A DNA stretch of 64,000 nucleotides from contig CAIIXF020000003.1 in assembly GCA_903813345.2 (NCBI GenBank), positions 9,057,912-9,121,911 on the forward strand. Direction: 5' to 3'. The notes under the pieces were generated by a model, which did not search any database, was not told where the DNA came from, and saw nothing but the letters and a program-made list of their open reading frames with translations. A program made the translations under genes and the position numbers. Origin of the DNA: Owenia fusiformis. Lineage: Eukaryota > Annelida > Polychaeta > Sabellida > Oweniidae. Numbering within the stretch: position 1 is the first letter of the stretch; every line of letters starts with the position of its first letter. Positions 3,201-61,119 of the stretch are shown here, piece after piece.

Positions 3201-6200
3201 CAGGTAAGGAGATTTGCAATCTTCATTTTTAAAATGAATGAAAATAATAATGATATAACAAATATAAATATTTTATATACGCAATGATTAATGTGCAAGT
3301 AAAAGTACAATTGATGCAGAGACCTTGATCTATTTCAGGAGTCCGTTAAAGAAGGATGGTTGATTTTCATGTTCTTTTTGCTCGTTGTTGTTGATGTAGT
3401 TATAATTGCTGTTTGGTTTGCCATTGATCCATTGCATCCAACCACAAGAGAATTGAATTCAAACGTAAGAATATCGTTTATATCTGCATTGGTTGCTACC
3501 TTCACAACCGGCTTACGGACAACTCATCCCCTAGACAACTCATCCCTGGACAACTCATCCCCTAGACAACTCATCCCCTAGACATTTCATCCCCTGGACA
3601 ACTCATCCCCTGAACACATCATCCCCTAGACAAGTCATACCCTGTACAACTCATCCCCAAGACAACTTATCCCCTAGACAACTCATCCTTTATCACATGA
3701 AGCCAAATTGTTAAGTATTTTTGGAAAATAAATATTTATTAAATACACCTTGAATCATTCTAAATATTATTTTTCACTCTATTGACACAAATAAAATGGT
3801 CAAAGGGTGCCACTAAAACTTTCATATTTTGTCTTAATATTACATGACTTAATATTTCATGACAAAAAATAAAGTTTTCTCTCTGCATAATTCTGAAACA
3901 TGAACTTCAGTAACTTCATCTGTGACTGCTATGAAAAAAATTATCTTTGGATTAAAGAATATTTGAACTCTGAACACACATATAATGACATCAAAGGAGC
4001 TTCTTCAATCAATGTTAACATTTATTGAAATTGTATATTTAACGTAAAATGAAAGGTAAATATTTACACAACAAATCACAGATTAATTGGTTGATGATAT
4101 CCTCGACAATACCATAGTAGTACCATGGTATATCATAGTTTTTTAAACAATCTTCCAGATTTCCCCTCAAGAAAGTCTTTGTTCACTTGTCAGTCAGAAG
4201 ACAACAGAATCGTCGCTTTAATATCTTACTATTGTTATGTAAATGGAAAGAGTTAGAAGTGCAGATCTTAACTATTTTTGAAGTTCTGTTTACGTAGCAA
4301 AAGTGAGGTATTAAATCGAGGATCGTGTTAATCATTTGAATAATATATGAATTAATAATATTACATTAAATTACTCAAACATGCCAAAGGATGAGTTGTC
4401 TAGGGGATGAGTTGTCTAGGGGATAAGTTGTCCAGGGGATGAGTTGTCTAGGGGATGAGATGTCCAGGGGATGAGTTGTCCAGGGGATGAGTTGTCTAGG
4501 GGATGAGTTGCCCAGGGATGAGTTGTCTAGGGGATGAGTTGTCCGGTTACCGTTGGTACCTCAGAACATATTGCGAATATTTCTGGAATCGTTATTTATT
4601 TTCAATCAAATCTAAACAAAATGTTCTAAATATCAATGTCATTTACATGTCATGTCATGTTTAAACTTAACATAAGTGTTGCTTAGCAAAATATATATAC
4701 GGGCCACTCTGCAACAAAATATAAATGTATTAGTAATATTATATGTGTATAGTTAAGGTATATGAAGCACGAAATTGAATATTTGAAGATAATTGCATTT
4801 CTCTATAGTTTGACGATTATACTTCGATTAGGACAATAACTATTATAACTAGACTTGGGAAATTGAACGAAGTTCAATTTCAGACTCCAGATCCAGACTT
4901 TTTTAAGCCCAGTCATCTAAAATAAGCCGAGTCATCCAGAATAAGCTGAGTCATCCAGAATAAGATGGATGGATAAAACAGGAAGGTAGGATAGGATAGA
5001 ATGGGAAGGAACGATAGGATAGAATAAGAAAGAAGGATATGATAGAACAGAATAGGAAGAAAGGATATGATAGGAGAGGATAGGAAGGAAAGGATACGAA
5101 GGAAGGATAGGATAGGATAGGTTCAGATAGGAAGGATGGATGAATTTTTCAATATTTTCTTCTCTACTCTTGACTTTCTACCAGGATACCATCAGATCGA
5201 TTTTCCGAAATTTCAAAACGCCATAACTTCCGAACCGGAAGTCGGAACGAAATTTGATCTAAAGATTTGGATTCCTGACAAAATTCTACCCCTAATTCAT
5301 AACTCATACGTTAAATTTGGCGAATTTTTATTTTGACCTACTTTTCGTACACGCCATAACTTCGGAACTGGAAGTCGGATCGAAATTTGGTTTGCAGATT
5401 CGGATTCCTGAGAAAATTCTACACTTAATTCATAACTCAAACGTCAAAATTGGAGAACTTTTAATTTTGACCTACTTTTCGGACACCATATCTCAAAAGT
5501 GGATCAAAATACTTTCTGACGGCAAAAGGCTAACACTATTAGCACACTCTTGGCTACATGTATACACAATTTCGAAGAATATTATTGAAGTGTAGTGTCA
5601 GAATCGCAAAAATAAGGAAAACCTTTGAATTTGACCTAGATTTTGACCTAGGCATGTTGGTGTCCAAATTTTGAAGCTAGATGGCTTTTTAGGTCACCTT
5701 CTTTTAAAAGCTTTCATTAAATTAAGCTAAACTCAGTCTATATTTCGTATTCTTCACTTCAAAAAAATCTTTTTTCCCATTGACTTAACATGGGCACCAA
5801 ATTTAGCGATTTTTGAGCTTTTAAAACGACATAACTTCCAAACCGGAAGTCGGATCAAAATTTGGTTTGCAGATTCAGATTCCTGACAAAATTCTACCTC
5901 TAATTCATAACTCATACCCTGAATTTGGAGAACTTTTGTTTTGACCTACTTTCTGGACGCCATATTTCAAAATCGGTAAGAGTAATTTAAAAAAACAGGG
6001 ACACTTATGAAAGGGCTTTTTCTAAGCTACATGATGAAAAAAAGATGAAGACGTTTCGATAAATAATGACGAAGATAATTGATAGAATGTTGAAAATGTA
6101 AGATTTGACCTAGTTCTTGACCTTTGACCTAGATAAAAAATTGACCCAATTTCCGAGAAACTAGATACTGGACCTAAATTGACCATATACAGGACTTGAC

Positions 6201-9200
6201 TCAATGTCTTCTAGTTAAGGAGAAAACGTTGGTAGAAGAATAATAACTAGATTTGTAAATTGAACAAAGTTCAATTTAAGACTCCAGATTGATTTACTTG
6301 AGTAAAGAGCTGAGTAAGTAACTGAGTAGGAAGCTGAGTAAGTAGATGATTAAGTAATTGAGTAAGTAGCTGAGTAGGTAGCTGAGTAAGCAGCTGAGCA
6401 GGTAGCTGAGTAAGTAGCTGAGTAGGTAGCGGAGTAAGTAGCTGAGTAGGTAGCTGAGTAGGTAGCTGAGTAGGTAGCTAAGTAGGTAGCCGAGTAGGTA
6501 AGTAGGTAGGTAAGTAGGAATTTTTGACCGGAAGTCAGATTGAAATTTGGTTTGCAGATTTGGATTCCTGAGAAAATTCTACCCTTAATTCATAACTCAT
6601 TTTATTTTGACCTACTTTACGGACACCATATCTCAAAAGTGGGTCAAAATACTCTCAGACGGCAAAAGGCTAACACTATAAGCACACTGTTTGCTACCTG
6701 TTACAAAATTTTGAAGCAAATCCTAAAAGTGTAGTGCCAGAATCGCAAAAATAAGGAAAAACTATGAATTTGACCTAGATTTTGACCTAGGCATTTTGGT
6801 GTCCAAATATTGAAACTAGGTAGCTATTGAGGTCCCCTTCTTTTATAGGAATTCATTATTTTAAGCTGTACTCAATCTATATCTCGTATTTTACACTTCA
6901 AAAAAATATTTTTTCCTTGACTTTCTATCAGGATACCATCAGATCGATTTTTCTCGAAATTTCAAAACGCCATAACTTTCAAACCGGAAGTCGGATCGAA
7001 ATTTGATTTAAAGATTCAAGTTCCTGACAAAATTCTACCCCTTATTCATAACTCATATGTTAACTTTGGCGAATTTTTATTTTGACCTACTTTTTGGACA
7101 CGCCATAACTTCGAAACCGGAAGTCGGATCGAAATTTGGTTTGCAGATTCGGATTCCTGAGAAAATTCTACTTTTAATTCATAACTCATATGTAAAATTT
7201 GGAGAATTTTTTATTTTGACCTACTTTTCGGACACCATATCTCAAAAGTGGGTCAAAATACTCTTTGACGGCAAAAGGCTTACACTATTAGCCTACTCTT
7301 TGCTACCTGTATACAAAATTTTGAAGCAAATCCTAAAAGTGTAGTGCCAAAATCGCAAAAATAAGGAAAAACTATGAATTTGACCTAGATTTTGACCTAG
7401 GCATTTTGGTGTCCAAATATTGAAACTAGGTAGATTTTTAGGTCCCCTTCTTTTATAGGAATTCATTATCTTAAGCTGTACTCAATCTATATCTCGTATT
7501 TTACACTTCAAAAAAATCTTTTTTCCTTGACTTTCTATCAGGATATCAACAGATCGATTTTTCTCAAAATTTTCAAAACGCCATAACTTTCGAACCGGAT
7601 GTCGGATCGGAATTTGGTTTGCAGATTTAGATTCCTGAGAAAATTCTACACTTATTTCATAGCTCATATGTTAAATTTGGTTAACTTTTTAGTTTGACCT
7701 ACATTTCGGACACCATATCTCAAAAGTGGGTCAAAATACTTCCTGACGGCAAAAGGCTATCACTATAAGCACACTCTTTGCTACCTGTATACAAAATTTT
7801 GAAGCAAATTATTTAAGTGTAGTGTCAGAATCGTAAAAATAAGAAAATGCTATAAATTTGACCTAGATTTTGACCTAGGCATTTTGCTGTCCAAATTTTA
7901 AAGCTAGATAGCCTTCGAGGTCCCCTTCTTTTATAGGCTTTCATAATGTTAAGCTGTACTCAGTCTATATCTCGTATTTTACACTTCGAAGAAGTCTTTT
8001 TCCCCATTGACTTAACATGGGGCACCAAATTTAGCGATTTTGATATTTCAAAATGCGATAACTTCTAAACCGGTAGTCGGATCGAAATTTTGTTTGCAGA
8101 TTCGGATTCCTGAGATAATTCTACACTTATTTGATAATTCACACGTTGAATTTGGAGAACTTTTTATGTTCTGACCTACTTTTCGGACGTCATTTCTCAA
8201 AATCGGTAAGAGTAATCAAAAAACGATTTGCCTTACGGAATTAGCTTTTTTTCTAAGGAACATGATGAAAAAAACCCGGAGCAAAAATACCGAAGGACGA
8301 CTGAGAAAACTTGTAAAATAGTGAAAACCCACGATTTGACCTAGTTCTTGACCTTTGACCTAGATAAACATTTGACCTAATTTCCCAGAAACTAGGTTTC
8401 ATTACCTAGTTGACTATGTTAGCAGATTTAAGTAAGTTCTTCTAGTTGCTGAGAAAAAGTGTTCGGAAAGAAAGAAAGAAAGAAAGAAAGAAAGAATAAC
8501 TAGATTGGTAAATTGAACAAAGTTCAATTTAAGACTCCAGATTGATTTACTTGAGTAAAGAGCTGAGTAAGTAACTGAGTAGGAAGCTGAGTAAGTAGAT
8601 GATTAAGTAATTGAGTAAGTAGCTGAGTAGGTAGCTGAGTAAGTAGCTGAGTAGGTAGCTGAGTAGGTAGCTGAGTAAGCAGCTGAGCAGGTAGCTGAGT
8701 AAGTAGCTGAGTAGGTAGCTGAGTAAGTAGCTGAGTAGGTAGCTAAGTAGGTAGCCGAGTAGGTAAGTAGGTAGGTAAGTAGGAATTTTTGACTGGAAGT
8801 CGGATTGAAATTTGGTTTGCAGATTTGGATTCCTGAGAAAATTCTACCCTTAATTCATAACTCATAAGTTAAATTATGAGAACTTTTTATTTTGACCTAC
8901 TTTACGAACACCATATCTCAAAAGTGGGTCAAAATACTGTTTGACGGCAAAAGGCTCTCACTATTAGCACACTCTTTGCTACCTGTATACAAAATGTTGA
9001 AGCAAATCCTAGAAGTGTAGTGCCAGAATCGAAAAAATAAGGAAAAACTATGAATTTGACCTAGATTTTGACCTAGGCATTTTGGTGTCCAAATATTGAA
9101 ACTAGGTAGCTTTTGAGGTCCCCTTCTTTTATCAGAATTCATTATCTTAAGCTGTACTCAATCTATATCTCGTATTTTACACTTCAAAAAAATCTTTTTT

Positions 9201-12200
9201 CCTTGACTTTCAATCAGGATAACATCAGATCGATTTTTCTCGAAATTTCAAAACGCCATAACTTTCAAACGGGAAGCCGGATCGAAATTTGGTTTGCAGA
9301 TTCAGATTCCTGACAAAATTCTACCCCTAATTCATAACTCATACGTTAAATTTGGCGAATTTTTATTTTGACCTACTTTTTGGACACGCCATAACTTCGA
9401 AACCGGAAGTCGGATCGAAATTTGGTTTGCAGATTCGGATTTCTCGGAAAATTCTATTCTTAATTCATAACTCAAACATCAAATTTGGAGAACTTTTTAT
9501 TTTGACCTACATTTCGGACACCATATCTCAAAAGTGGGTCAAAATACTTTCTGACGGCAAAAGGCTAACGCTACTAGCACACTCTTGGCTACATGTATAC
9601 ACAATTTCGAAGAATATAATTAAAGTGTAGTGTCAGAATCGAAAAATAAGGAAAACCTATGAATTTGACCTAGATTTTGACCTAGGCATTTTGGTGTCCA
9701 AATTTTGAAGCTAGATGGCTTTTGAGGTCCCCTTCTTTTAAAGGCTTTGATTATGTGAAGCTGAACTTAGTCTATATTCCGTATTTTTCACTTCAAAAAA
9801 ATCTTTTTTCCCATTGACTTAACATGGGCACCAAATTTAGCGATTTTTGAGTTTTCAAAATGCCATAACTTCCGAACCGGAAGTCAGATCGAAATTTGGT
9901 TTGCAGATTCAGATTCCTGAGAAAATTTTACACTTATTTCATAGCTCATATGTTAAATTTGGTTAACTTTTTAGTTTGACCTACTTTCCGGACGCCATAT
10001 CTCAAAATCAGTAAGAGTAATCAAAAAACGGATGGCACACTCTCGATTTGTTTTTTTCTAAGCTACATGTTGAAAAAAAGATGAAGGAGTTACCACAAGT
10101 AACAACGAAGATAATTGACAGAATGTTGATTGACCTAAATTTGACCTAGTTCTTGACCTTTGACCTAGATAAAAATTTGACCTAATTTCCCAGAAACTAG
10201 GTTGATGGGCTATGTTAGCCATGTAAGTAGGTTAAAGTAAGTTCTTCTAGTTGCTGAGAAAAAGTGTTCGGAAAGAAAGAAAGAAAGAAAGAATGAATAA
10301 CTAGATTGGTAAATTGAACAAAGTTCAATTTAAGACTCCAGATTGATTTTCTTGAGTAAAGAGCTGAGTAAGTAACTGAGTAGAAAGCTGAGTACGTAGA
10401 TGATTAAGTAATTGAGTAAGTAGCTGAGTAGGTAGCTGAGAATTAGGTAGCTAAGTAGGTAGCCGAGGAGGTATGTAGGTAGGTAAGTAGGAATTTTTGA
10501 AGTTATATTTGAAGGATCTGCATTGTGGATATTGGCAAATTTTAAAATGGCGTAGAATCTAAACCGGGAGTCGGATTGAAAGTTGCTTTGCAGATTTAGA
10601 TTCCTGAGAAAATTCTACTCTTAATTCATAACTCATAAGTTAAATTTGGAGAACTTTTTATATTGACCTACATTTCGGACACCATATCTTAAAAGTGGGT
10701 CAAAATACTTTCTGACGGCAAAAGACTTACACTATTAGCACACTCTTTGCTACATGTATACAAAATTTTGAAGCAAATTATTAAAGTGTAATGTCAGAAT
10801 CGCAAAAATAAGGAAAAACTATGAATTTGACCTAGATTTTGACCTTGGCATTTTGTTGTCCACATTTTAAAGCTAGGTCGCCTTTGAGGTCCCCTTCTTT
10901 TATAGGCTTTCATTATGTTGAGCTGTACTCAGTCTATTTCTGGTATTTTACACTTCAAAAAAAACTTTTTCCCTATTGACATTATATGGGGCGCCAAATT
11001 TAGCAATTTTTGAGCTTTCAAAATGCCATAACTTCCGACCGGGAAGTCGGATCGAAATTTTGTTTGCAGATTCGGATTCCTGAGAAAAATCTACCCTTAT
11101 GTCATAGCTCATATGTTAAATTTGGAGAATTTTTCATTTTGACCTACATTTCGGACATCATATCTCAAAAGTGGGTCAAAATACTTTCTGACGGCAAAAG
11201 GCTATCACTATAAGCACACTCTTTGCTACCTGTATACAAAATTTTGAAGCAAATTATTTAAGTGTAGTGTCAGAATCGTAAAAATAAGAAAATACTATAA
11301 ATTTGACCTAGATTTTGACCTAGGCATTTTGCTGTCCAAATTTTAAAGCTAGATAGCCTTCGAGGTCCCCTTCTTTTATAGGCTTTCATTATGTTAAGCT
11401 GTACTCAGTCTATATCTCGTATTTTACACTTCGAAGAAGTCTTTTTCCCCATTGACTTAACATGGGGCACCAAATTTAGCGATTTTGAGATTTCAAAATG
11501 CTATAACTTCTAAACCGGAAGTCAGATCGAAATTTTGTTTGCAGATTCGGATTTCTGAGATAATTCTACACTTATTTGATAATTCACACGTTGAATTTGG
11601 AGAACTTTTTATGTTCTGACCTACTTTTCGGACGTCATTTCTCAAAATCGGTAAGAGTAATCAAAAAACGATTTGCCTTACGGAATTAGCTTTTTTTCTA
11701 AGGAACATGATGAAAAAAACCCGGAGCGAAAATACCGAAGGACGACTGAGAAAACTTGTAAAATAGTGAAAACCCACGATTTGACCTAGTTCTTGACCTT
11801 TGACCTAGATAAACATTTGACCTAATTTCCCAGAAACTAGGTTTCATTACCTAGTTGAGTATGTTAGCAGATTTAAGTAAGTTCTTCTAGTTGCTGAGAA
11901 AAAGTGTTCGGAAAGAAAGAAAGAAAGAAAGAAGGAAAGAAAGAAAGAATAATAGGAAAACTGGCAAAAGCAATAGACTCCAGATTTTCATCTGGAGTCT
12001 AATAATAATAACTAGACATGTAAATTGAACAAGTTCAATTTAAGACTCCAGATTTAAAACTTTTTTTAAGCTAAGTCATCCAAAATACTGTTAGCTGAGC
12101 CATTCAGAATAAGCTGAGTCATCTAGAATACAGACATTTAGACAACTCTTAAGTAGCTTATCTTTGTCTACATTGGCTTAACATGGGGATATCATAATGT

Positions 12201-21200: not shown

Positions 21201-24200
21201 TTTTGAGATTTCAAAACGCCATTACTTCAGAACAAGTAGTCGGATCGAAATTTGGTTTGCAGATCTAGATTTCTGAGAAAATTCTACCCTTAATTCATAA
21301 CTCATACGTTAAATTTGGAAAACTTTTAACTTTGGCCTACTTTTCGGACACCATATCTCAAAAGTGGGTCAAAATACTTTCTGACGGCAAAACGCTAACA
21401 CTATTAGCATACTCTTTGCTACCTGTATACAAAATTTTAAAGCAAATCATTTAAATATAGTGTCAGAATCGCAAAAATAAGGGAAAACTATAAATTTGAC
21501 CTAGATTTTGACCTAGGCATTTTGGTGTCCAAATTTTGGAGCTAAGTAGCCTTCGAGGTCCCCTTCTTTAATAGGCTTTCATTATATTAAGCTGTACTCA
21601 GTCTATATCTCGTATTTTACACTTCAAAAAAATCTTTTTTCCCATTGACATAACATGGGGCAGCAAATTTAGCGATTTTTGAGCTTTCAAAACACCATAA
21701 CTTCCGAACAGGAGGTCGAATCAAAATTTGATTTGCAGATTCGGATTCCTGATAAAATTCTACCCCTTATTCATAACTCATACGTTACATTTGAAGATTT
21801 TTTTTATTTTGACCTACTTTTGGGACACCATATCTCAAAAGTGGGTCAAAATACTTTTTGACGGCAAAAGGCTAACACTATTAGCACACTCTTGGCTACA
21901 TGTATACACAATTTCGAAGAATATAATTAAAGTGTAGTGTCAGAATCGCAAAAATAAGGAAAAGCTTTGAATTTGACCTAGATTTTGACCTAGGCATTTT
22001 GTTGTCCAAATTTTCAAGATTAGAAGGTTTTGAGGTCCCCTTCTTTTATGGGCTTCCATTATGTTTAGCTGTACTTAGTCTACATCTCGTAGTTTACACT
22101 TCAAAAAAAAAAATTTCCCATTGACATAACATGGGGCACCAAATTTAGCGATTTTTGAGCTTTCAAAACGCCATAACTTCCGAACCGGAAGTCGGATCGA
22201 AATTTGGTTTGCAGATTTGGATTTCAGAGAAAATTCTATCCTTAATTCATAGCTCATACGTTAAATTTGGAAACTTTTTATTTTGACCTACTTTTCGGAC
22301 ACGCCATAACTTCCAAACCGGAAGTCGGATCGAAATTTGGTTTGCAGATTCGGATTCCTGAGAAAATTCTATACTTAATTCATAACTCAAACGTCAAATT
22401 TTGAGAATTTTTTATTTTGACCTACTTTTCGGACACCATATCTCAAAAATGGGGCAAAATACTTTCTGACGGCAAAAGGCTAACACTATTAGCAGACTCT
22501 TAGCTACATGTATACAAAATTTCGAAGAATATAATTAATCTGTTGTGTCAGAATCGCAAAAATAAGGAAAAACTTTGAATTTGACCTAGATTTTGACCTA
22601 GGCATTTTGGTGTCCAAATTTTGAAGCTAGATGGCTTATGAGGTCCCCTTCTTTTAAAAGCTTTCATTATATTTAGCTGAACTCAGTCTATATTTCGTAT
22701 TTTTCACTTCAAAAAAATCTTTTTTCCAATTGACTTAACATGGGCACCAAATTTAGCGATTTTTGAGCTTTCAAAACGCCATAACTTCCGAACAGGAAGT
22801 CGGATCAAAATTTGATTTGCAGATTCGGATTCCTGAGAAAATTCTACCCTTATTTCATAGCTCATATGTTAAATTTGGAGAACTCTCTGGTTTTGACCTA
22901 CTTTCAGGACGCCATATCTCAAAATTGGTACGAGTAATCAAAAATATGTTGGCACACTCATGAAAGAGCTGTTTCTAAGCTACATTATGAAAAAAAGACA
23001 AAGTTGTTCCCATGAATAATGACGAAGATAATTGATAGAATGTTGAAAATGCAAGATTTGACCTAGTTCTTGACCTTTGACCTAGATAAAAATTTGACCT
23101 AATTTCCCATCATCCCAGATACATTCCCTATTTGATCATGTAAGCAACTTAAAGTAAGCTCTTCTAGTTGGTGAGAAATCTGGGAAGGAGGAAGAATAAT
23201 AATAATAAGAAAACTGGCAAAAGCAATAGACTCCAGATTTTCATCTGGAGTCTAATAAGAAAACTGGCAAAAGCAATAGACTCCAGATTTTCATCTGGAG
23301 TCTAATAATAATAATAAAGAAAACTGGCAAAAGCAATAGACTCCAGATTTTCATCTGGAGTCTAATAATAATAATAAAGAAAACAGGCAAAAACAATAGA
23401 CTCCAGATTTTCAATCTGGAGTCTAATAAGAAAACTGGCAAAAGCAATAGACTCCAGATTTTCATCTGGAGTCTAATAATAGGAAAACTGGCAAAAGCAA
23501 TAGACTCCAGATTTTCATCTGGAGTCTAATAATAAAGAAGAATACTGGCAAAAACAATAGACTCCAGATTGACATCTGGAGTCTAATAACAGGATCTTAA
23601 GAGGTTCTGGACAAATCATTTGATTCTGGACTTGTCATATTTTTTTTTCAACGAAATCACATCCAAGGGTTGAATTTTTATTAGCTATTTAGAGAACGAG
23701 TCCTGCCTAGTATCAATTTCAATAAAAAAGTTAAAATAGAACCCTATTTGAGAGTCAATCTAATACTTACATTACATTGATAAATTAAGGCAAATCCTGA
23801 AATATTTTTAAAGTGCATTTTTTTATGAAATATTATCCAGCAAGTATTTAAATGAAACGGTCTTATTTAAATACAAATCATAACATGATATTTTTCATGA
23901 AACATTTTTCAATGAAATTCAATTGAAGGGTCAAGATAAAACGAGCTAATTTAGGTGAAAACCCTTACATGATGATGTGTTTTCATAACTTCTTTCATAA
24001 AATTCCATCAAGGGGTGAAGATAAAATGATCGAATTTAAGTGATTTAAGGATCACGAGAATATGTTTTCTTTGATATTTTCTATGAAATCCCATCCAATG
24101 GTCAAGGTAAAATTTTGATTTTGATTTTGATTTGGTCACTTGTTCGAAAGATCCATATAAGGCCCATAGAACCATATAGGAACGTCATTTTGAATGTCAC

Positions 24201-27200
24201 GCGATAGATCCATATAAGGCTTTTAGAACCATTTATGGAAAGATGAGGGAAGCCCCTGACACCTGTTTCACGATTTTTATGCACTTCATTATTGTACCGA
24301 AGTTTGCCGATTTGATTCGTCGTATTTCGGAATCCTGGTGACAATTTTATACTCCATTGGAGTATTTTTGACCTACTTCTTATGACGGAAATTCCCGAAC
24401 CTTGTTCGGATTAATCCGGATTTTCTGACCTACTTTATCTACCGAGATTTCACGAGTTAACATTCGTCTCATTCCGGAATCCTGGTGACAATTTTATACT
24501 CCATTGGAGTATTTTTGATCTACTTTTTCTGGATTTTGCCCTACTTATTATATCTTGACAACAAGCAAATCAAAAAGTTCGACATGAACGGGTCTCGATC
24601 AACTAACCTAGACTATGGAAGCCAGGCACGCTAACCATGAGGCCAACGAGCCACCGATATGAAAGAACAAAAGTATTATATATTTATACCGAGCGTCAAT
24701 TCAAAATGATCCTCACTTTTGTCTCCACTTAAATACGACTCGTCAGTTGTATCCAGAATAGTAGAACGCCTATGGCGCTAGTGAATAACCAAGTCCCATG
24801 TGAGTGGTTCGTATCCCTCCGTGATATACTATTTTTGTTTTATTAAATACGACAGAAAGGAGCAAGGTGTAGGTTGAAAACAAGACGTTAGTTTGTTTCA
24901 AAACAGTTTGGAAACATTAATCTCTGATAATTTAAGGTTTTCCACTCCTGAAGGGCCTCTAGATCTATGAAATTCAATAATCCACTCAGTAAAAATACGA
25001 TTTCTCTGCAACCTGATGTCCAATCAAGATCATTCAAATATATATGTGTTCCTGACACGTTTGGGCGTCCGGGAATAAAATTGCTTGTGAAAACTATTTA
25101 CAAAAGTGTTCCAGAGACCCTTATCTACTTGGCTAAGGTTTTATTTGAAGATACATTGCCTTATTAGCAGGTAGAGGGGCATACAGAACACAGAAGCAAA
25201 TGCTATGTTGAAAATTTTCTATATTTCAATTTGAACCTGTGTTTACATGTCACGTAGGCCAGTGTTTTATATGGGGATTATATGTACTTTCCTTGTTTAC
25301 ATGAACGTAAATCATTACTTGAAATCTGCATTCTTCTGGGTTTAATCTGGGTTTGTATTGTCTTATTGGGGCTTTTCGACTTTAAAACAAACCCTACCTA
25401 AATGGATTGTGTCTCGGGAACGTTTTTGTAAATAGTTATTATAAACAATTCTGAAAGAATATCACATATTTTTGTCTTCCCGATTTCAGTCATGAATTAC
25501 GTCAATTTCTCGTGCAAACATTGGGTAGACGTTGTCATAACCGGATGCCCGAACGTGTCAGGAACATATAGATACTCGAATGATGCTGATTGAACATCAG
25601 GGTTGAGAGAAATCGTAATTTTACTGAGTGGCTTCACGAAAAAATAAGCAGCACTTTAGGCCACCTAAATACAACTCGTCAGTTGTATCCAGTTGGAATC
25701 CCAGCGTAATGTTTTTAATTATATGGTTGTGCTTTGATTTTACGCTGAAAACATTTATAACTACGTCAACTTTATATTAAAACATTTATTATCTTTTCAG
25801 TTGTATTAAAATGTAAAATATGATATATGTCAGCTTATTGCTTTCTGGAGAACAGTCAAGGTTTAAATTTGGTACAATGAATCGGACACTCATGTAAATC
25901 GACATGGTTATAACATTGAACTCAATGCAGTAAATTAGTTATTTCTATGAATCACAGCGGGATTGGTTTCATTTATATGATTGCCAACTCTGGCGGTTTT
26001 TTGTAAATGCTTTTGACCGCTGTAAATGTGAAACTGATACAGTATTATTCAATTGTTTTATGTCTTGGTCACATTTGCTCCGATTTTCACTACGGCGCCC
26101 GGCCGATTGAGTATTGTGTTCAGAAATGTATTCAATTTTGAACAAAATACTCGCAGCAAATGTGATCCAGGCATTACACAGCGGTATTTCGAACATACTA
26201 TTGTTGCTTAACCACGACCTAGCCAATTTTAAAATCATACTCCTTATTTAAATCCAAGTAATGCCCTGGTCACATAGGCTCCGATTTTCTCTACGGCGCC
26301 CGGCCGATTGAGTATTTTGTTCAAAATTGAATACAATATTGAACAAAACACTCAATCGGCCGGGCACCGGCCGATGGATCGGAGCTTATGTGACCAAGGC
26401 ATAAACGATCAATGTCTAGGTATTTGGCGTTTGATGATACTATGGCCCTTGGCGAATTATGATTAGATGAACCGAGGTCAACATTAATGTTTCTTGTACA
26501 AGGTCATCCCAAGGTCTAAGATAAATATTTAGGTATTTTACGTTTCAAGACCTTTGGACAAATTCGATTCAACGATGTATTAAAGTTAAAATGTATACAG
26601 AGATAAAATGGGTTATCTCCTATCGTTTCCTTGTGTATACGTTTATGTCTCTGCGTAATAACGCAGATGCGAGCAGGTAGTTACCAATCTCACCACAAGG
26701 TGGCTCGTTCGGGTCAGATAGCATGGCGGGTATGGTAGAAAGTTCCCTTTAACTTAAAGTACATCTGTTTTCGTGGTTCAATTTTCATATCACCCTTAAA
26801 ATGTATCTAATAGCAATGCAATTAAAATATGTCCAGTGAACGAAAATGCAATACAAGAATAGATATTTCACTTTTTGTGATTTTGTAACAATGGGGTTAT
26901 TTTTTGTATATGTAACATGGTCATTTTCACATTTTATATTATTACTGTTCATATTAATCAATCCCTATTCATCTCAATATAACAGGTCCCTAAGTAGGTT
27001 GTTTGCAGTTTTACTCTTTTAATACCATGTTCACTTTTCACCTTGAGTTATTCAACTATGCAAACTGTGTCAGTTTTATATATCTATTGTTCCCCTATAT
27101 GGTCTTTCTCACTCACATGTAGCTGAGTTTGCATTGGGTGTTGGCTTGTCAGTAGTTGCTGTAAGAGTTCATGTTGTACATTACAGAGCATTGTATTTTA

Positions 27201-30200
27201 AACATTGAAGTTTGAAATATACTATTTTATATATATTTTAATTTGAAGTTCGAGTTATTTTATTGCCACCCACGGGCCTTCCACACGCCCATTTACATAT
27301 AACGCTTTGAAACAACTTTAAAAAGTGAGCAATGTCAGTGTTGTGATAATAGAGAATTTTCGTTATAAGTTGTTTCAAAAACGTATACGTATACTTATAG
27401 TTTAAAGGGTCTTGTCGAACTAAAATCAATTCAAATTGATTTTCATAATCTGTACCAAGTGGGGCATAACTATTCCCGATATAGTCAAGCTTCATCATCA
27501 ACTAGGGACTGCGAATACAATGTCCTTTGCTAGTGTCAATTATGAACACGATAAACTAAATTCTAGTTGACGGGTCCTTGTAGTGTACGATAAACAAGAC
27601 CCTTTAAAGTGAATCACTACACAAACGAGTCGATCATTTCAAAGTTCTCATGAAATTATAAGGTCAATTTTTAAGTTTTTACGTATAAAAGGGCCTTTAT
27701 ACGCAGATTATAAACTTACAGAGTTGGATCTCCGCATAGTATATGTGTGGACCTACTGACCAGAATGGCTTATTAAAATTAATCGGCTGAATAGGCATAG
27801 TATCCAATCAAATAGCTCGACTCATTCATTAGCTGAACTAATTCTCCCTTCGTTATTTCTACAAGGTGATTCAAAACGATCATCTACAAAAAATATATTT
27901 GAGAGTAGATAAATCTGTAAAACCCGTGTGCTATATCAGCCTATTTGATTCTAGAAAACACATATGACACAACTAAACATGCTTTACATCAAGGGGGTAC
28001 GGATGGTATGCCATTGGCCCTTTTTATTACCTTCCTAGGAGATATTTCCCGACGAATTAGGAAATTATGAAACACCTTGTTTATTGGGTTTATAAGTATA
28101 AGTATACGTATACGTTTTTAAAAAACTTATAACGAAAATTCTCTAATAACGCCCCTCATACCTATTTATTACAGGTCGTGTAGACCATTGTTGCCTGATT
28201 TATAGCAAAAACATTGACTTTTGCACGTTGATGATGATGATGATGATGATGATGATGCGCCTTTTATAATAGATCTCATATCTTAGAAGCGTATCAGTTC
28301 AAAAAATACTAGAAGACCTTACATATTTTGCCATGCACTGCGCCTATTCATTTGGCAATTCAGTTGTAAATTTTATCTTGAAAAAAATAAATCTTCCAAA
28401 TTTGTTGAGTTTTCTTGCAGAAATCGCCTACCCCCCCCCCCCCCCTCCATCCATTTTGTATGATCACAAGGCGTGATTTAAGCTGCTGATATTCTTCTTT
28501 AAACGAGTTGGATTTTCAAAATCTATAAGTTGGACTCCCTTTATAGAAGCTTTGAACTGAATTTGCACTGCTTAATGCTGAAATTTTATTGTTTATCCAT
28601 ACATTTTAAGAAAAAATGTATAAAAAAAGATGTTAAAGCCAAATGTTGCCCTAAAAATTCAGAAAATGTAAAAAATTTCGAATTTTCTATGTACAGGCCT
28701 TGTTGCCCCTTTAAGAAGCTTAATATGTAAATTATCTAATCAAACACTTCGTCCACCATTTTGAAACACTAATCAATCCAATCTGTGCTAGCGATTCATA
28801 GGGCGAGTCAGTGGGATATTTCCAGGGTTCTTACACACCTGGAAATGTCAGGGAAATTGACTTGATTTTCCAAGTGCTGGAAATGTCAGGTAATTTTAAA
28901 ATTAGGTCAAAAGGGCCAAAGATGACCGGGAATATTGAAACGGTAGACATGTCAGGGAAATGTCAGGGAAATTTGTATCAGTGTTGAAAAAATAATGTTC
29001 CAGAGATTAATGTTTCCAAACTGTTTTGAAACAAACTAACGTCTTGTTTTCAACCTACACCTTGCTCCTTTCTGTCGTATTTAATAAAACAAAAATAGTA
29101 TATCACGGAGGGATACGAACCACTCACATGGGACTTGGTTATTCACTAGCGCCATAGGCGTTCTACTATTCTGGATACAACTGACGAGTCGTATTTAAGT
29201 GGAGACAAAAGTGAGGATCATTTTGAATTGACGCTCGGTATAAATATATAATACTTTTGTTCTTTCATATCGGTGGCTCGTTGGCCTCATGGTTAGCGTG
29301 CCTGGCTTCCATAGTCTAGGCTAGTTGATCGAGACCCGTTCATGTCGAACTTTTTGATTTGCTTGTTGTCAAGATATAATAAGTAGGGCAAAATCCAGAA
29401 AAAGTAGATCAAAAATACTCCAATGGAGTATAAAATTGTCACCAGGATTCCGGAATGAGACGAATGTTAACTCGTGAAATCTCGGTAGATAAAGTAGGTC
29501 AGAAAATCCGGATTAATCCGAACAAGGTTCGGGAATTTCCGTCATAAGAAGTAGGTCAAAAATACTCCAATGGAGTATAAAATTGTCACCAGGATTCCGA
29601 AATACGACGAATCGAATCGGCAAACTTCGGTACAATAATGAAGTGCATAAAAATCGTGAAACAGGTGTCAGGGGCTTCCCTCATCTTTCCATAAATGGTT
29701 CTAAAAGCCTTATATGGATCTATCACGTGACATTCAAAATGATGCTCCTATATGGTTCTATGGGCCTTATATGGATCTTTCGAACAAGTGACCAAATCAA
29801 AATCAAAATTTTACCTTGACCATTGGATGGGATTTCATAGAAAATATCAAAGAAAACATATTCTCGTGATCCTTAAATCACTTAAATTCGATCATTTTAT
29901 CTTCACCCCTTGATGGAATTTTATGAAAGAAGTTATGTAAACACATCATCATGTAAGGGTTTTCACCTAAATTAGCTCGTTTTATCTTGACCCTTCAATT
30001 GAATTTCATTGAAAAATGTTTCATGAAAAATATCATGTTATGATTTGTATTTAAATAAGACCGTTTCATTTAAATACTTGCTGGATAATATTTCATTAAA
30101 AAACGCACTTTAAAAATATTTCAGGATTTGCCTTAATTTATCAATGTAATGTAAGTATTAGATTGACTCTCAAATAGGGTTCTATTTTAACTTTTTTTAT

Positions 30201-32356
30201 TGAGATTAATACTAGGCAGGACTCACTCTCTAAATAGCTAATAAAAATTCAACCCTTGGATGTGATTTCGTTGAAAAAAAAATATGACAAGTCCAGAATC
30301 AAATGATTTGTCCAGAACCTCTTAAGATCCTGTTTAATGCTTAAATGTGAATCTACAAACAAGAACTACTTTCCTATTGCTACACTATGTTACATGGGCA
30401 TTCATATATATTGCATTTCTCTATAGCTTGACGATTATACTTCGGTAAGGACAATAACTATAATGATTGAATGTGAATCTACATACAAAAACTACTTGCT
30501 AATTGCTACACTATGCTACAAGGGCATTGTGTTATTGATGGGTGGATTCATAGTTTGGCCAGCACTGTAAGTGATATTTTAAGCAAACACCAATACATAT
30601 GTTATCAACGAACCATCCTAAGTAAGGACGGGTTAATAGGGGATAACACCGATTTCAGAATGAATTTCTAAGCAACAATTATACCAGAGCGATATACTAG
30701 TATACAGTGAGCCTAAGGGATTTGTCATGATTGATGCTTACACTATGTTATTTATATTTCCGATATATTTTGAAGCATTTGAAGTGTATTGAGACCAATA
30801 AAGACGATTAGATGTACTGTTTCAACATCAAGAAAATTAAAACTGCTAAACTGAATTCTGGTTAAATCCATGTGTTTATCTGACTGTGTAACTATAATGC
30901 CATTCTGGTACCATTTTTTCGGAATCTGATATTGGTGGAAAGATCACACCTTATCGAAGATAATCTTTTTCAAAATTGCATAAGTTCTGTTTTTCCGATG
31001 GGTATACGCTTTTCATTTGTTGACTCCATTTAATTTCAATATGCAAAAAGTTTTTTATTAACTTTTTTAGTAGATTTTACAAAAATGTGTCTTGCAGGCA
31101 AAAATATTAATTAAGAGAATGAAATGATGTAAACATGTTGCTTCTTCATTAATACTGTCAATGGCATTATGGAGATATGTCTTCGGCGCATCATCAGTGT
31201 TAGAATTTTTAAACTCAACTTTTGTTCAAGTTGATACGATTGTCCTCTTGAACTAGAGACCTGCCTCATTCGGAAGATCCTAAAAGACTTCATCATAACT
31301 GAAAATCTAAGATCCAAGGATGGTCGAACACGCCGTCAGTCCGCTTTTGATTTTTGACCACAATATGCAAATTCTTTTTTTGGATTCGCTTTTTGGTAAT
31401 ATGTCATTAGCTTTCTTCTAGCTTAAGTAGTTTAACGTGTTTACCAACGCTTATTTAGTACTGAGGAAAGCGGCAATGGTTGTATATCTTTAGTAATCAT
31501 GTTATTGTGTCCGATTGCATGATGCTTTATCAATATCTGGAATTATATTCAAGGTTTATGTCAGTGAAGAAAGGATACTCCCACTTTTCCGGTTTTGCTG
31601 TTGCAGTCTTCATGAGTTTGTTGACCAGTATTGTATTGGTTGTTATCTCGTTCTTGATTCCAACTGAACCGAATGCTTTGTTCATTCTAACTGGATGTCT
31701 GGTATTAATCACAACACTACTGACTACTCTACTGATTTTAACCTCAAAGGTAATTTTTCAAAAATGTTCGAAAACACTTAATAGAACTAAATATCAAGTA
31801 TTCTTATATAGTAACCCGGGCAGTTTTTTGACAATTACATACTGTTGTGTAAACGAATATTATATCTGTGGATAATCTATCCTTAGTAAACAACAAATTA
31901 AAATCATAGAACTTATATGCTTCCATGATAGACTCTTATTACATTATGTAATATCAATATTTATTTTGCATTTGAAATTGAAGTAGTGGCTTTCCTTTTA
32001 TTTGCTATCAGATCAATGTAATGCCGAAAATATAATATATTCTATCAGTTACAAATAATGTACTTTAGGTCATTATCATAGCAAAAGGAGGTGGTCCACT
32101 TTATATGAAGTTATTTTCCCCAATTGGCGCAGCATTTGGCTTCTTGGAGACAGTGGCTGGAGAAGGCCAATTGCCTGGATTGGGTGCTGCTAAGTCGCTA
32201 AACATGCCAGAAGTTGCTCTTGCTGCTGGGAAGATTGAACTAAGTGACCGAAAGTCTGTTTTGGATAATGCTGACCATCACCACGACAAGGGCGGTCATT
32301 TAAATGTCGGTGGTTCGGACTTGATCAATGGCTACGATTTAGAAGAATGCTCGTGA
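169..32356 (+). CDS. GABA-B receptor-like class C GPCR, 3' part of gene (8 exons)
   Basis: Exons: 169-261, 1068-1218, 1550-1685, 2992-3090, 3339-3464, 30427-30566, 31554-31749, 32069-32356. All junctions have AG/GT borders and compatible phases; with one base from an upstream exon they give 410 codons including the stop. The product runs from the end of the ligand-binding ectodomain through seven membrane segments to a short tail. GABA-B-like marks are KIGYFD before TM1, the ECL1 cysteine (KDICM, end of the TM2 exon) with its ECL2 partner (IECEST), KLWGVYRLF after TM3, FAIDPL at the end of TM4 and CYKG in TM5. Known family role: heterodimeric metabotropic GABA receptor coupled to Gi/o. Ligand here is unknown, because metazoan GABA-B-like families are expanded and often uncharacterised. 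Oddities: 27-kb intron 5, short third intracellular loop, no obvious coiled coil in the tail, duplicated exon pieces. The upstream exons are outside the window. Confidence 0.87.
262..1067 (+). other. Intron between ectodomain-end and TM1 exons
   Basis: No gene seen. The interval holds short self-complementary stretches such as ATCCACGAGTGGAT (about 500-515), a related copy near 565-580, and TATCCGTCGGATAC near 735. The rest is AT-rich. Open frames on both strands around 374-643 are shadows of this hairpin-rich sequence. Confidence 0.6.
1068..1218 (+). CDS. Exon b: TM1 of GABA-B-like receptor
   Basis: Acceptor TTTTTAG precedes base 1068 and the perfect donor GTAAGT follows base 1218. The exon encodes GILPLDSEIEHVVRRRIS, then the hydrophobic stretch IIVLSVFAGVGILLGFVYIV, then ALHNRH. 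Position and composition match the GGxxPxD linker plus TM1 of GABA-B receptors. It ends in phase 2 and joins exactly to the first TM2 exon (GT+A gives Val). Confidence 0.82.
1115..1402 (+). repeat. Tandem partial duplications of the TM1 exon (124-bp period)
   Basis: A 124-bp unit starting inside exon b (CGTATTAGTAAG at 1115) recurs at 1239 and, truncated, at 1363. Each full unit holds the 3' part of the exon, its GTAAGT donor and about 20 bases of intron. Copy 2 differs by only a few bases from copy 1. An AG at 1236-1237 could act as an acceptor for copy 2, but the phase is then wrong and a stop follows, so the extra copies look non-coding. Confidence 0.88.
1550..1685 (+). CDS. Exon c: TM2 and first extracellular loop of GABA-B-like receptor
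   Basis: Acceptor TTGCAG precedes base 1550 and donor GTACGT follows base 1685. The exon translates to MIKDEWP, then the membrane segment CIIIIGCILLDAYVLVHIAD, then a loop ending KDICM. It aligns with TM2 and ECL1 of GABA-B receptors, including the cysteine that pairs with ECL2. The distance from that cysteine to the GF of TM3 in the next exon is 11 residues, as I recall for human GABBR2. It enters in phase 2 and leaves in phase 0. Confidence 0.8.
1583..2091 (+). repeat. Tandem copies of the TM2 exon (118-bp period, four copies)
   Basis: The core beginning AATAATTATTGG recurs at 1583, 1701 and 1819 (exact 118-bp spacing) and again near 1990. Copies 2 and 3 lack the 5' end of the exon and any acceptor but keep the donor-like GTACGT or GTTCGT. 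Copy 4 (about 1951-2091) is full length (IKDEWPIMTC...), but a one-base loss at its 5' edge would put TGA in frame if spliced to exon b, and its loop reads GNISL instead of KDICM, losing the conserved cysteine. Confidence 0.85.
2092..2991 (+). other. Intron between TM2 array and TM3 exon
   Basis: AT-rich sequence with no exon recognised. The only structured item is a tRNA-related sequence on the minus strand at about 2835-2928, listed separately. Confidence 0.55.
2835..2928 (-). mobile_element. tRNA-derived SINE-like sequence
   Basis: Read on the minus strand, the interval has a box A-like TAGTGGTAGAGCAC and a box B-like GGGTTCAATCCCC followed by a short GC arm, as in a tRNA T-arm. A second GGTAGCTCAGTACTAG precedes box A, so the D-arm region is duplicated or degenerate and no intact cloverleaf is evident. 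The sequence then runs into CTTTTTCACATC. This fits the head of a tRNA-derived SINE better than a functional tRNA gene. Confidence 0.5.
2992..3090 (+). CDS. Exon d: TM3 of GABA-B-like receptor
   Basis: Acceptor ATTGAAG precedes base 2992 and donor GTAACC follows base 3090; both ends are phase 0. It encodes SSGLLIFGFTFFYGGMTVK and LWGVYRLFSQQRK. The pattern GF..xYGxMxxKxWxV is the TM3/ICL2 signature of GABA-B receptors. An alternative start at 2977 (after ATGTAG) is also in frame but would lengthen the ECL1-TM3 spacing by five residues. Confidence 0.82.
3339..3464 (+). CDS. Exon e: TM4 of GABA-B-like receptor
   Basis: Acceptor ATTTCAG precedes base 3339 and donor GTAAGA follows base 3464; 42 codons, phase 0 at both ends. 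It begins ESVKEGW, has the hydrophobic segment LIFMFFLLVVVDVVIIAVWF and ends AIDPLHPTTRELNSN. The W(x)xxDPLxRT pattern is typical of the TM4/ECL2 border of GABA-B receptors. Confidence 0.88.
3517..4544. mobile_element. Foldback-like element with minisatellite inverted arms
   Basis: The left arm (3517 to about 3690) is a tandem array of a 16-bp unit, GACAACTCATCCCCTA, about 11 copies with variants. The right arm (about 4389-4544) is the same array in inverted orientation. The outer ends GGACAACTCATCCCC and its complement are mirror images. About 700 bp of AT-rich sequence without a coding frame lies between. Long inverted arms built of short subrepeats are the hallmark of foldback transposons. 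I could not define a target-site duplication with confidence. Confidence 0.7.
4545..4806 (+). other. Intron sequence preceding the split TM5 exon
   Basis: AT-rich, no repeats or coding potential recognised. Its last 14 bases (TTGCATTTCTCTATAG ending at 4808) match the polypyrimidine tract and acceptor of the intact TM5 exon at 30411-30426. Confidence 0.6.
4793..4846 (+). pseudogene. 5' fragment of a broken second copy of the TM5 exon
   Basis: TTGCATTTCTCTATAG followed by GACGATTATACTTCG and AGGACAATAACTAT matches the acceptor and first ~40 bases of the intact TM5 exon at 30427 with few differences (translation DDYTSIRTITI against DDYTSVRTITI). The match stops at 4846, where the first composite repeat element begins. 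The missing remainder is found at 30335-30403, on the other side of the repeat block. Confidence 0.85.
4846..6243 (+). repeat. Composite element 1 (purine-rich head)
   Basis: The head palindrome is followed by AAGCCGAGTCATCCAGAAT repeats and a GGATAG/GAAGG microsatellite (about 4965-5140). One core unit follows, then the common tail ending near 6240. It shares its head type with element 8. Confidence 0.7.
6244..8496 (+). repeat. Composite element 2 (GAGTAGGTAGCT head)
   Basis: GAGTAAGTAGCT/GAGTAGGTAGCT tandem sequence occupies about 6300-6520. Core units follow, with GACCTAG marks at 6772, 7382 and 7860. The tail ends in a GAAA microsatellite (about 8466-8495). Confidence 0.7.
8497..10297 (+). 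repeat. Composite element 3 (GAGTAGGTAGCT head)
   Basis: The head is nearly identical to element 2 with a longer microsatellite (about 8550-8785). It carries two core units (marks near 9058 and 9667), the common tail and a GAAA run before 10298. Confidence 0.7.
10298..12008 (+). repeat. Composite element 4, ending in one terminal hairpin
   Basis: Short version of the element 2/3 head with core marks near 10829 and 11305. The tail closes with a GAAA run and one AGACTCCAGAT..ATCTGGAGTCT hairpin (about 11974-12000) directly before the next TAACTAGA. Confidence 0.7.
12009..14028 (+). repeat. Composite element 5
   Basis: The head lacks the long microsatellite and goes straight into degenerate core sequence. 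A truncated tail copy lies internally (about 12365-12480), followed by core units with marks near 12801 and 13409 and a full tail. It is the most diverged member. Confidence 0.65.
14029..16082 (+). repeat. Composite element 6 (GACCTAGATAGATCAG head)
   Basis: The head is followed by GACCTAGATAGATCAGTAAA and a GAGTAAGTAGCT microsatellite to about 14330. Core units follow with marks near 14519 (degenerate), 14988 and 15466, then a tail. Same head type as elements 7 and 9. Confidence 0.7.
16083..18905 (+). repeat. Composite element 7, near-duplicate of element 9
   Basis: Same head as element 6 and four core units (marks near 16736, 17207, 17681, 18290). By eye it is almost identical to 20381-23200 over about 2.8 kb, so one was copied from the other recently, or both from a common source. 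Confidence 0.75.
18906..20380 (+). repeat. Composite element 8 (purine-rich head), one terminal hairpin
   Basis: The head matches element 1, with a GGATAG/GAAGG microsatellite at about 19020-19215. It has one long core unit (mark near 19705). The tail ends with a single AGACTCCAGAT..ATCTGGAGTCT hairpin (about 20351-20378). Confidence 0.7.
20381..23587 (+). repeat. Composite element 9, ending in an array of hairpins
   Basis: Same organisation as element 7, with core marks near 21018, 21495, 21974 and 22587 and the common tail to about 23200. Beyond that it carries seven tandem terminal hairpins, listed separately, and ends where the 6.7-kb inverted-repeat element begins. Confidence 0.75.
23200..23587. 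repeat. Seven tandem copies of an 11-bp-arm hairpin
   Basis: The hairpin AGACTCCAGAT-TTTC-ATCTGGAGTCT occurs at about 23228, 23278, 23338, 23398, 23449, 23502 and 23559. The spacers (AATAAGAAAACTGGCAAAAGCA and variants) are near-identical, and the period is 50-61 bp. Single copies of the same hairpin close composite elements 4 and 8. Its left arm also appears in every element head. Confidence 0.9.
24585..24660 (-). mobile_element. tRNA-like sequence in left inverted arm
   Basis: On the minus strand it reads GGTGGCTCGTTGGCCTCATGG with a box A-like core, and further on GTTGATCGAGACCC, a box B-like T-arm. The mirror copy lies on the plus strand at about 29271-29345. The anticodon arm does not fold cleanly, so this is a degenerate tRNA or SINE head rather than an active tRNA. 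Confidence 0.4.
24982..25631. repeat. Inverted pair in the centre of the 6.7-kb element
   Basis: Bases 24982-25073 and the reverse complement of 25541-25631 share a diverged 90-bp match beginning CCACTCAGTAAAA and including GTTCCTGACACGTT. Both arms stay open in one frame (PLSKNTISLQPDVQS and PLSKITISLNPDVQS). The frame is short and I do not recognise it, so it may be a decayed exon or transposon-gene fragment. Confidence 0.6.
26060..26175. mobile_element. Degenerate copy of a palindromic MITE
   Basis: Contains CTTGGTCACATTTGCTCCGAT and CGGCGCCCGGCCGATTGAGT, with a partial mirror ending TGTGATCCAGGCAT. It is related to the better-preserved copy about 200 bp downstream. Confidence 0.6.
26261..26402. 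mobile_element. Palindromic MITE (about 142 bp)
   Basis: The element starts ATGCCCTGGTCACATAGGCT and ends with its near-complement (ATGTGACCAAGGCAT). The GC-rich CGGCCGATTGAGT is mirrored around an AATTGAATACAATATTG centre, so nearly the whole element folds back on itself. There is no coding capacity. Confidence 0.8.
27347..28150. mobile_element. Inverted-repeat element with about 60-bp TIRs
   Basis: Left end TAGAGAATTTTCGTTATAAG...AACGTATACGTATACTTATA (about 27350-27407) is mirrored at about 28088-28148. The roughly 800-bp body has no recognised frame, and the open frame at 27238-27501 minus spans the TIR and is not a credible gene. Likely a non-autonomous DNA transposon. Confidence 0.65.
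28151..29000. other. Spacer with simple repeats
   Basis: Contains a (GAT)n run at 28229-28257, a 16-17 base C tract near 28430-28446, and repeated CTGGAAATGTCAGG / TGTCAGGGAAAT words at about 28850-28975. No gene recognised; the open frame at 28530-28730 has no known features. Confidence 0.6.
29271..29345 (+). mobile_element. tRNA-like sequence in right inverted arm
   Basis: Mirror copy of 24585-24660, with a one-base difference (GGCTAGTT against GGTTAGTT, read on the same strand). Box A-like TGGCCTCATGGTTAGCG and box B-like GATCGAGACCC are present. Degenerate cloverleaf. Confidence 0.4.
30335..30403 (+). pseudogene. 3' fragment of the broken TM5 exon copy
   Basis: TGTGAATCTACAAACAAGAAC through ACACTATGTTACATGGGCATT matches the middle of the intact TM5 exon (CESTNKNYFPIATLCYMGI against CESTYKNYLLIATLCYKGI). 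It picks up where the 5' fragment at 4793-4846 stops. It ends at GGGCATT without a donor and runs straight into the polypyrimidine tract of the intact exon. Confidence 0.85.
30427..30566 (+). CDS. Exon f: ECL2 and TM5 of GABA-B-like receptor (intact copy)
   Basis: Acceptor TTTCTCTATAG precedes base 30427 and the perfect donor GTAAGT follows base 30566. It enters in phase 0, matching exon e, and leaves in phase 2, matching exon g. The translation LDDYTSVRTITIMIECEST carries the ECL2 cysteine. It continues into LLIATLCYKGIVLLMGGFIV with the CYKG motif corresponding to AYKG in GABA-B TM5. Confidence 0.88.
30567..31553 (+). other. Intron between TM5 and TM6-7 exons
   Basis: No repeats or further exon recognised. 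GABA-B receptors normally have about ten more residues in the third intracellular loop than the direct f-g join gives, so I looked for a small phase 2-2 exon here and found no convincing one. Confidence 0.5.
31554..31749 (+). CDS. Exon g: TM6 and TM7 of GABA-B-like receptor
   Basis: Acceptor ATATTCAAG precedes base 31554 and donor GTAATT follows base 31749. The first base completes a Leu codon with exon f. It encodes FMSVKKGYSHFSGFAVAVF (compare GMSVYNVGIM at TM6), then a second membrane segment ILTGCLVLITTLLTTLLIL ending TSK, where GABA-B receptors have VPK. Confidence 0.87.
32069..32356 (+). CDS. Exon h: cytoplasmic tail and stop of GABA-B-like receptor
   Basis: Acceptor TACTTTAG precedes base 32069, phase 0. 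95 codons plus TGA. The tail begins VIIIAKGGGPLYMKLFSP, is rich in Gly/Ala/Leu in the middle and has DNADHHHDKGGH near the end. I see no heptad coiled coil like that of vertebrate GABBR1/2 and no clear PDZ ligand (ends LEECS). Confidence 0.82.
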   Translation, partial: VIIIAKGGGPLYMKLFSPIGAAFGFLETVAGEGQLPGLGAAKSLNMPEVALAAGKIELSDRKSVLDNADHHHDKGGHLNVGGSDLINGYDLEECS

Positions 32357-32877
32357 CCTTTAAGTTAGATTTCATAACTGCAGCCATTTTGAAAGAACTC
32401 GGGAAATATTACATTGTTCATTGGAAATATGTCCGTATCCAATCCCTTCTAGAATATAACTTCTTTAGATCTGATATATACTGTTTATATCCTATATAAC
32501 TACTACTTGTATGAATATTTTCGATACTTCGTATTTTCCCGTCCAATTTCGTTTATTGAAATCGTATTCGAGTCTCAATCCCAATCATGAAAATGGTATT
32601 CACCTCCCGGGGATTTCAGCTCAGTTCGATATGGCTCGGTATCATGATATTCTTATATGAGAAACGATATTTTTCAATCAAAATCAAAGAGATTTTGGAG
32701 TAGTATGAAGATTGTAAGTTTATATAAACATAGGCAAATTGTTATTTCATCATCATGCTCTGACACGGACAGTCAATGTCATAAAAAATTTGAGCAATGT
32801 GCGAATACCCTGTCATGGACATACGTATTGTTGATGAATTTGTGACAACATATTGTGTTGATGTGTTTATGTTATGC

Positions 32878-58985: not shown

Positions 58986-59810
58986 CATTGCAAACTGTGA
59001 AACTGCCCGGGAGTTAAAAATTCTAAATTACTACAAATCTCAATACTTTTCCGAAATCGATGCAAAAATGTAATATAGTATCCGCTGGACAAAGGTGCGC
59101 TGTAAATATTGTAGGCTACTTTACAGAACTTGTACAATATCATACAACGCTACTGTATGTGCATCCCGGGATGTGCATTGCGAACTGGTTCCCCTGTAAA
59201 GCATCTGCCATGTTCTGTTGAGTTCTTTCAAGTATTTTGTTAAACTACCAAGGAACTGAATATCATGAATTACTACAAATCTCAATACTTTTTCGAAATC
59301 AATATGCAAACATGTAATATATTATCTACTGGACAAAGGTGCACTGTAAATATTGTAGCCTACTTTACAGAACTTGTACAATATCATACAACGCTACTGT
59401 ATGTGCATCCCGGGATGTGCATGGCGAACTGGTTCCCCTGTAAAGCATCCGCCATGTTCTATTGAGTTCTTTCAAGTATTTTGTTAAACTACCCGGGATC
59501 TGAATGTCATGAATTACTACAAATCTCAATACTTTTTCGAAATCAATATGCAAACATGTAATATATTATCCACTGGACAAAGGTGCACTGTAAATATTGT
59601 AGGCTACTTTACAGAACTTGTACAATATCATACAACGCTACTGTATGTGCATCCCGGGATGTGCATGGCGAACTAGTTCCCCTGTAAAGCATCCGCCATG
59701 TTCTATTGAGTTCTGTCAAGTATTTTATTAAACTACCCGGGAACATAATGTCATGAATTACTACAAATCTCAATACTTTTTCGAAATCAATGCAAAAGTT
59801 AATGACTAAT
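58986..59810. repeat. 244-bp tandem repeat, three copies
   Basis: ATGTGCATCCCGGGATGTGCAT, a palindrome-centred phrase, recurs near 59157, 59401 and 59645 (period 244). Units share the TGGCGAACTGGTTCCCCTGTAA and ATTACTACAAATCTCAATAC phrases with the 227-bp array, so both arrays descend from one sequence. Confidence 0.88.
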
Positions 59811-61096: not shown

Positions 61097-61119
61097 ACCA
61101 ACCACACACAGACACAATC

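Follow-up and report, generated by a model that had tools for sequence, protein, structure and literature searches.

A 25.5-kb block within the seven-transmembrane part of a GABA-B-like receptor gene of Owenia fusiformis is made up of two insertions, an 18.7-kb array followed by a 6,747-bp transposon. The account proposed here, in which the array and then the element with terminal inverted repeats (TIR) entered an already truncated copy of the TM5 exon while the intact exon kept the reading frame, is very probably correct as a whole. Each step is of a known kind (an exon duplicated in tandem and in part, then an array of Helentron/HINE-like units, then a TIR transposon), and the locus is an ordinary yet unusually well resolved example of transposons in dispensable DNA within a gene. 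The stretch of DNA that was analyzed, referred to as the window, comprises 64,000 nucleotides (C3:9057912-9121911) within an assembly of 498 Mb.

A receptor gene and its truncated TM5 copy

Seven exons on the plus strand of the window splice in frame to give a single open frame of 377 amino acids when the broken TM5 copy is left out. These are TM1 (1068-1218, with AG/GT borders), TM2 (1550-1685), TM3 (2992-3090), TM4 (3339-3464), TM6/TM7 (31554-31749), a last coding exon that carries the C-terminal tail to the stop codon (32069-32357), and the intact TM5 exon (30427-30566), which the first-pass annotation had rightly placed downstream of the block and which is delimited by alignment, by AG/GT borders and by its frame with the six others. 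The translated product matches the Pfam family 7tm_3 (PF00003) across residues 17-279 with a score of 98.4 bits against a cut-off of 33.5 (E = 7.1e-28), and 15 of the 17 PDB sequences that it matched are GABA-B subunits, the other two being GPR156 (best E = 1.3e-22). The seven-transmembrane domain is therefore the feature that the window gene has in common with GABA-B receptor subunits 1 and 2, which are class C GPCRs, and the receptor assignment rests on this part of the protein, the upstream part of the gene, in which the extracellular Venus-flytrap ligand-binding domain would be expected, being outside the window. Although the spliced protein matches PF00003, a genome search with this profile (72 matches) had none in the window or at the C3 paralog loci used here because the individual exons are short. 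Since the complete downstream exon keeps the reading frame, the normal transcript would be expected to join the TM4 donor at 3464 to the TM5 acceptor at 30426 across a 27-kb intron, with exon sequence resuming at 30427.

Several other features were noted in the window. The TM4-TM5 intron holds an element of ~1 kb (3516-4545) composed of 16-bp tandem repeats (GACAACTCATCCCCTA and its reverse complement), with inverted ends of ~176 bp that are 85% identical. An exon at 41534-41800 matches the high-affinity choline transporter 1 (SLC5A7; E = 1.9e-10), and an open frame at 46459-46998 resembles, by eye only, the same SLC5A7 gene. Tandem repeats of about three copies each are found at 59026-59791 (period 244 bp) and 61065-62202 (period 413 bp), and a tRNA scan returned none.

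The proposal in the first-pass annotation that TM5 sequence is partly tandem-duplicated is borne out by alignment of both plus-strand fragments that flank the block. Positions 4789-4846 align with 30406-30464, and positions 30335-30402 align with 30461-30528, in each case with a local score of 91, where the best of 500 query shuffles reached 28 or 29. Joining the host flanks (4789-4843 and 30336-30402) and comparing them with the intact copy gives 110 identical columns out of 123 and a single gap, located before the acceptor. The fragments are thus located where they had been placed, while their limits shift: exon sequence starts at 4809, the host-derived part of the 5' piece (4789-4843) ends at ~4843, since the letters from 4844 onward match the terminus seen in other copies of the inserted element, and the 3' piece (30335-30402) stops at 30402, inside the exon at the equivalent of 30528. 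As had also been recognized, the AG acceptor survives in the 5' fragment. Overall, the split copy retains this acceptor along with 102 nt from the start of the exon, reads without a stop codon, and ends at GGGCATT; 38 nt from the 3' end of the exon are missing, as is the donor, and the sequence upstream of the intact exon starts 7 nt past this end. The two copies differ at 10 of 34 codons, 8 of these 10 differences being non-synonymous. A functional or mutually exclusive duplicate exon would span the entire coding length between an acceptor and a donor, which the split copy does not.

Truncated copies are also present in paralogous genes. A genome search with the intact exon gave 16 matches at 11 loci; seven of the ten loci outside the window were fetched, and C2:5.57M, C8:18.3M and C8:2.9M, with a single match each, were judged from the search alone. 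Truncated TM5 copies were seen at three of the 11 loci: one, which is split, in the window, one at C3:2.03M and two at C3:0.80M. At all three loci the copies end at the same position (query base 124), and the junction GGCATTCATA is present at all four copy-to-copy junctions (one in the window, two at C3:0.80M and one at C3:2.03M). None of the paralog copies is interrupted by an insert. The C3:2.03M copy contains an in-frame TAA, the first C3:0.80M copy has AG changed to AA as well as indels, and the second C3:0.80M copy is little decayed (3 of 33 codons changed). Because copies without an insert end at the same base, the window copy most likely had no donor before the insertion took place. A tree of the TM5 sequences, which are short (~118 bp), leaves the truncated copies ununited: the C3:2.03M copy falls with the unduplicated exon of C3:1.99M (support 0.74), and one of the C3:0.80M copies falls, with a weak support of 0.27, beside the full exon of its own locus. 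This topology calls for conversion among the copies, for duplication more than once, or for a loss in C3:1.99M.

The two components of the block

The left part of the block, at 4844-23583 on the minus strand (ends uncertain by 1 nt), is an 18.7-kb head-to-tail array of nine units. Read along the plus strand, each unit starts with a TAACTAG-type end, which is ATAACTAG in eight units and AAAACTAG in one, and in all nine this is followed by a palindrome, AAATTGAAC..GTTCAATTT, and then by AGACTCCAGAT. The palindromic 3' ends are located at 4845, 6243, 8496, 10297, 12008, 14028, 16082, 18905 and 20380; a further loose match to the pattern, at 6129, has no palindrome and was not counted. At the right end of the array (23559-23584), AGACTCCAGAT is followed by its complement ATCTGGAGTCT, and the complementary 11-mer occurs at nine places in the window, each within the array. 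Two structural features of Helentrons and their non-autonomous derivatives (HINEs) are therefore present: at the 5' end, an 11-bp (sub)terminal inverted repeat next to its complementary copy and, at the 3' end of all nine units, a subterminal repeat and then a palindrome.

The end of the array reads ATAACTAG in 14 of 14 genomic copies that were fetched, drawn from the 40 scored among 1093 candidates, and this shared end places the host border at 4843/4844. When joined, the host flanks give ACTAT|AATG, the same letters that the intact copy has and no extra base, so that at this one site the array has no target-site duplication, which is a further Helentron/HINE feature. A canonical Helitron was considered and rejected, as the 5' TC and 3' CTRR termini are absent and the minus-strand ends are AGACTCC/GACTCC and CTAGTTATA. 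Matches to PF14214 (Helitron Rep) number 58 in the genome, many of them on the small contigs C13, C505 and C515, with open frames of up to ~3,300 aa. Neither the array end motif nor similarity to the array was found in any of four 9.5-kb stretches downstream of Rep/Hel genes. The left part of the block is best described as a candidate non-autonomous, Helentron/HINE-like rolling-circle array.

The right part, at 23588-30334, is a non-coding-looking transposon of 6,747 bp with ends AACAGGATCTTAAG. Its terminal inverted repeats are ~1.34 kb long with arms that are 98.6% identical, and it is flanked by a TAAT target-site duplication at 23584-23587 and 30335-30338. Five copies of the element were examined; both ends are visible in the window, L006, L008 and L009, and the right end of L007 lies beyond the fetched stretch. 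All four copies with two visible ends have 4-bp duplications (TAAT, TTTC, ATTT and AAAG), and the pairing of inverted terminal repeats with a duplication of fixed length that characterizes TIR DNA transposons is thus seen in four of four. The first 293 bp of the element show 99% identity in all 39 places outside the window (of 595 candidate places, 40 were scored), which points to recent spread. A transposase was looked for in the window copy only, where stop-to-stop frames between 23588 and 30334 reach 102 aa at most. With the outer borders located at 4843/4844 and 30334/30335, the first reading is upheld on the point that the composite array and the inverted-repeat element of 6.7 kb together interrupt the TM5 copy.

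Truncated copies of other exons

Of the seven window exons, TM1, TM2 and TM5 have each given rise to truncated tandem copies, and the borders of these copies are found again in paralogs. Copies of TM1 and TM2 lie downstream of their exon and have no acceptor side. On the plus strand, the TM1 copies (one complete 124-bp unit and a partial one, without the first part of the exon) are at 1235-1403, and two TM2 copies of 118 bp each are at 1700-1935. A second, nearly full TM2-like copy with splice-like borders at 1954-2091 is seen in the window gene only. It was tried as an alternative TM2 exon and rejected, as reading on from its AG after the TM1 exon is out of frame and meets immediate stops; it is probably a pseudo-exon.

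TM1 units that start from query base 52-54 are found in the window, at C3:0.57M (three), at C3:0.80M (two complete and one partial) and at C3:4.4M (one partial), with decayed pieces in C3:2.03M and weak, distant matches only in C3:1.99M. TM2 units that start from query base 43 are found in the window (two), at C3:0.80M (one) and at C3:0.57M (13, the last partial). The C3:0.57M array of TM2 units (L011, C3:565500-573500, at ~2380-3970 on the minus strand) has 118- and 106-bp forms, the latter carrying a 12-bp in-frame deletion. Since there is no TM5 match near this locus and no TM3-TM7 match within the 8 kb fetched, it may be a gene fragment.

Could such units be used? The truncated TM1 and TM2 units were rejected as exons, as the acceptor side is missing, and several TM1 and TM5 units contain frameshifts or have lost splice sites, which argues against a coding role. 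Nevertheless, one could propose that the TM1, TM2 and TM5 exons seed minisatellites that serve as banks of competing splice sites tuning the full-length receptor, with the block having parted one acceptor. The ladders of exon units do mostly keep their splice donors (TM1 and TM2) or acceptors (TM5, one lost): donors are GT in 12 of 15 aligned truncated TM2 units and GC in the other three, and GT in five of the six TM1 units with letters at that place and GC in one, the partial C3:4.4M copy having none there. We regard this regulatory proposal as quite improbable. The truncated tandem copies of all three exons look neutral, and retention of a complete exon on one side is what a tolerated partial duplication requires. 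A random-placement estimate for three units of 118-126 bp, each with exactly one exon border, is 0.019, which is no real test since the gene was chosen for its exon copies.

Order of events and comparison with known systems

How did the block come to lie within an exon copy? We hypothesize that an old partial tandem duplication left a truncated, donor-less copy directly upstream of the TM5 exon, made up of an acceptor and the initial ~100 nt of exon sequence. The Helentron/HINE-like array would have entered this copy between ACTAT and AATG, without a target-site duplication as far as the sequence allows this to be judged. Later, a long-TIR DNA transposon would have entered the right border of the array, as is shown by the TAAT that was duplicated there; the left TAAT lies at the border of array and exon and the right TAAT lies in the exon, and for this reason the array must have preceded the TIR element. 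The gene could probably do without this copy by that time, and breaking it would therefore have been close to neutral. Since the truncated copies in paralogs carry no insert and some have decayed, the insertion most likely struck non-coding intronic DNA. The exon skipping by which the first-pass annotation had kept the gene readable is then unneeded.

The same annotation had taken the upstream copy for a complete duplicate TM5 exon, and an alternative hypothesis is that this was once a mutually exclusive exon, broken and partly deleted by the insertion, after which the other copy was used. The acceptor and open frame that both copies have over their shared part are compatible with such a past. 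However, the 3' end of the upstream copy adjoins the intact exon, away from the insertion, the identical 3' end is found in two insert-free paralogs, and among the paralog copies one contains a stop and another has lost its acceptor. Loss of a complete exon is for these reasons rejected, and the former alternative exon is very unlikely. Comparably slight is the probability that the block arrived as a single composite unit, a reading to which the exact abutment of array and TIR element and the presence of only one outer pair of host borders lend themselves. Against it, the TIR element by itself has TAAT on either side, its other copies carry their own 4-bp duplications, and the palindromic end motif of the array is absent from the short flanks (25 to ~530 bp) of L006-L009; moreover, 14 of 14 array copies elsewhere are without the TIR element beside the palindromic end, which is the opposite end to that abutting it in the window.

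An assembly artefact, with repeats collapsed or misjoined, might be suspected in a repeat-rich block within a window that has an N run at ~47.4-47.9 kb, yet both insertions have clean and biologically sensible borders, and this explanation is the least probable of all. Somewhat more room is left for use of the acceptor of the broken copy, by which satellite sequence would be exonised and receptor expression changed or lowered. The AG and its pyrimidine-rich tract are intact, and the frame from this acceptor stays open for 38 codons (4809-4922) into the array. It meets a stop at 4923, however, a GTRAG donor scan of 4809-6300 has its first match at 5976, and the same upstream acceptors are tolerated in paralogs, so that exonisation is unlikely; a transcript of this kind would encode a receptor cut off after TM4. 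Under the preferred reading, that of two successive insertions into a truncated TM5 copy, the succession of nested insertions within the receptor gene can be followed to single bases, and paralogs act as natural controls showing that the exon copy was dead before it was hit. The case also counsels caution, in that a broken exon next to an intact one need not imply the loss of a working duplicate.

Partial tandem exon duplications and exon-derived minisatellites are a known general kind. The truncated units resemble exon-derived minisatellites in having one breakpoint within the exon, a complete exon at one end of the array and a copy number that varies between relatives; they differ in that three exons of one gene are involved here, with borders common to paralogs. 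A literature search, mostly of open-access text, yielded no description that we recognized of exon-seeded arrays in GABA-B-like genes, and minisatellites formed by truncated exon copies, affecting several exons within one receptor family, constitute a wider pattern. The 6,747-bp element shares long TIRs, a 4-bp duplication and many similar copies with long-TIR (foldback-like) DNA transposons, and differs from them in that the window copy is without a transposase.

The array is most readily compared with Cg_HINE, a Helentron non-autonomous element of the Pacific oyster (PMC7492417, PMC8268682). According to these descriptions, both have at one end an 11-bp subterminal inverted repeat next to its complementary copy, while at the other end this 11-mer precedes a palindrome (PMC7492417), and both hold an internal microsatellite and satellite-like tandem repeats, form tandem units and lack a target-site duplication. 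Unlike in Cg_HINE as described there, the microsatellite of the array is at the palindrome end rather than at the other end, and the core repeats are of 133/476 bp. Helentrons are described as inserting into TT (PMC5148889), whereas the array targeted T/A, its single site reading T/A or A/T with an ambiguity of 1 nt.
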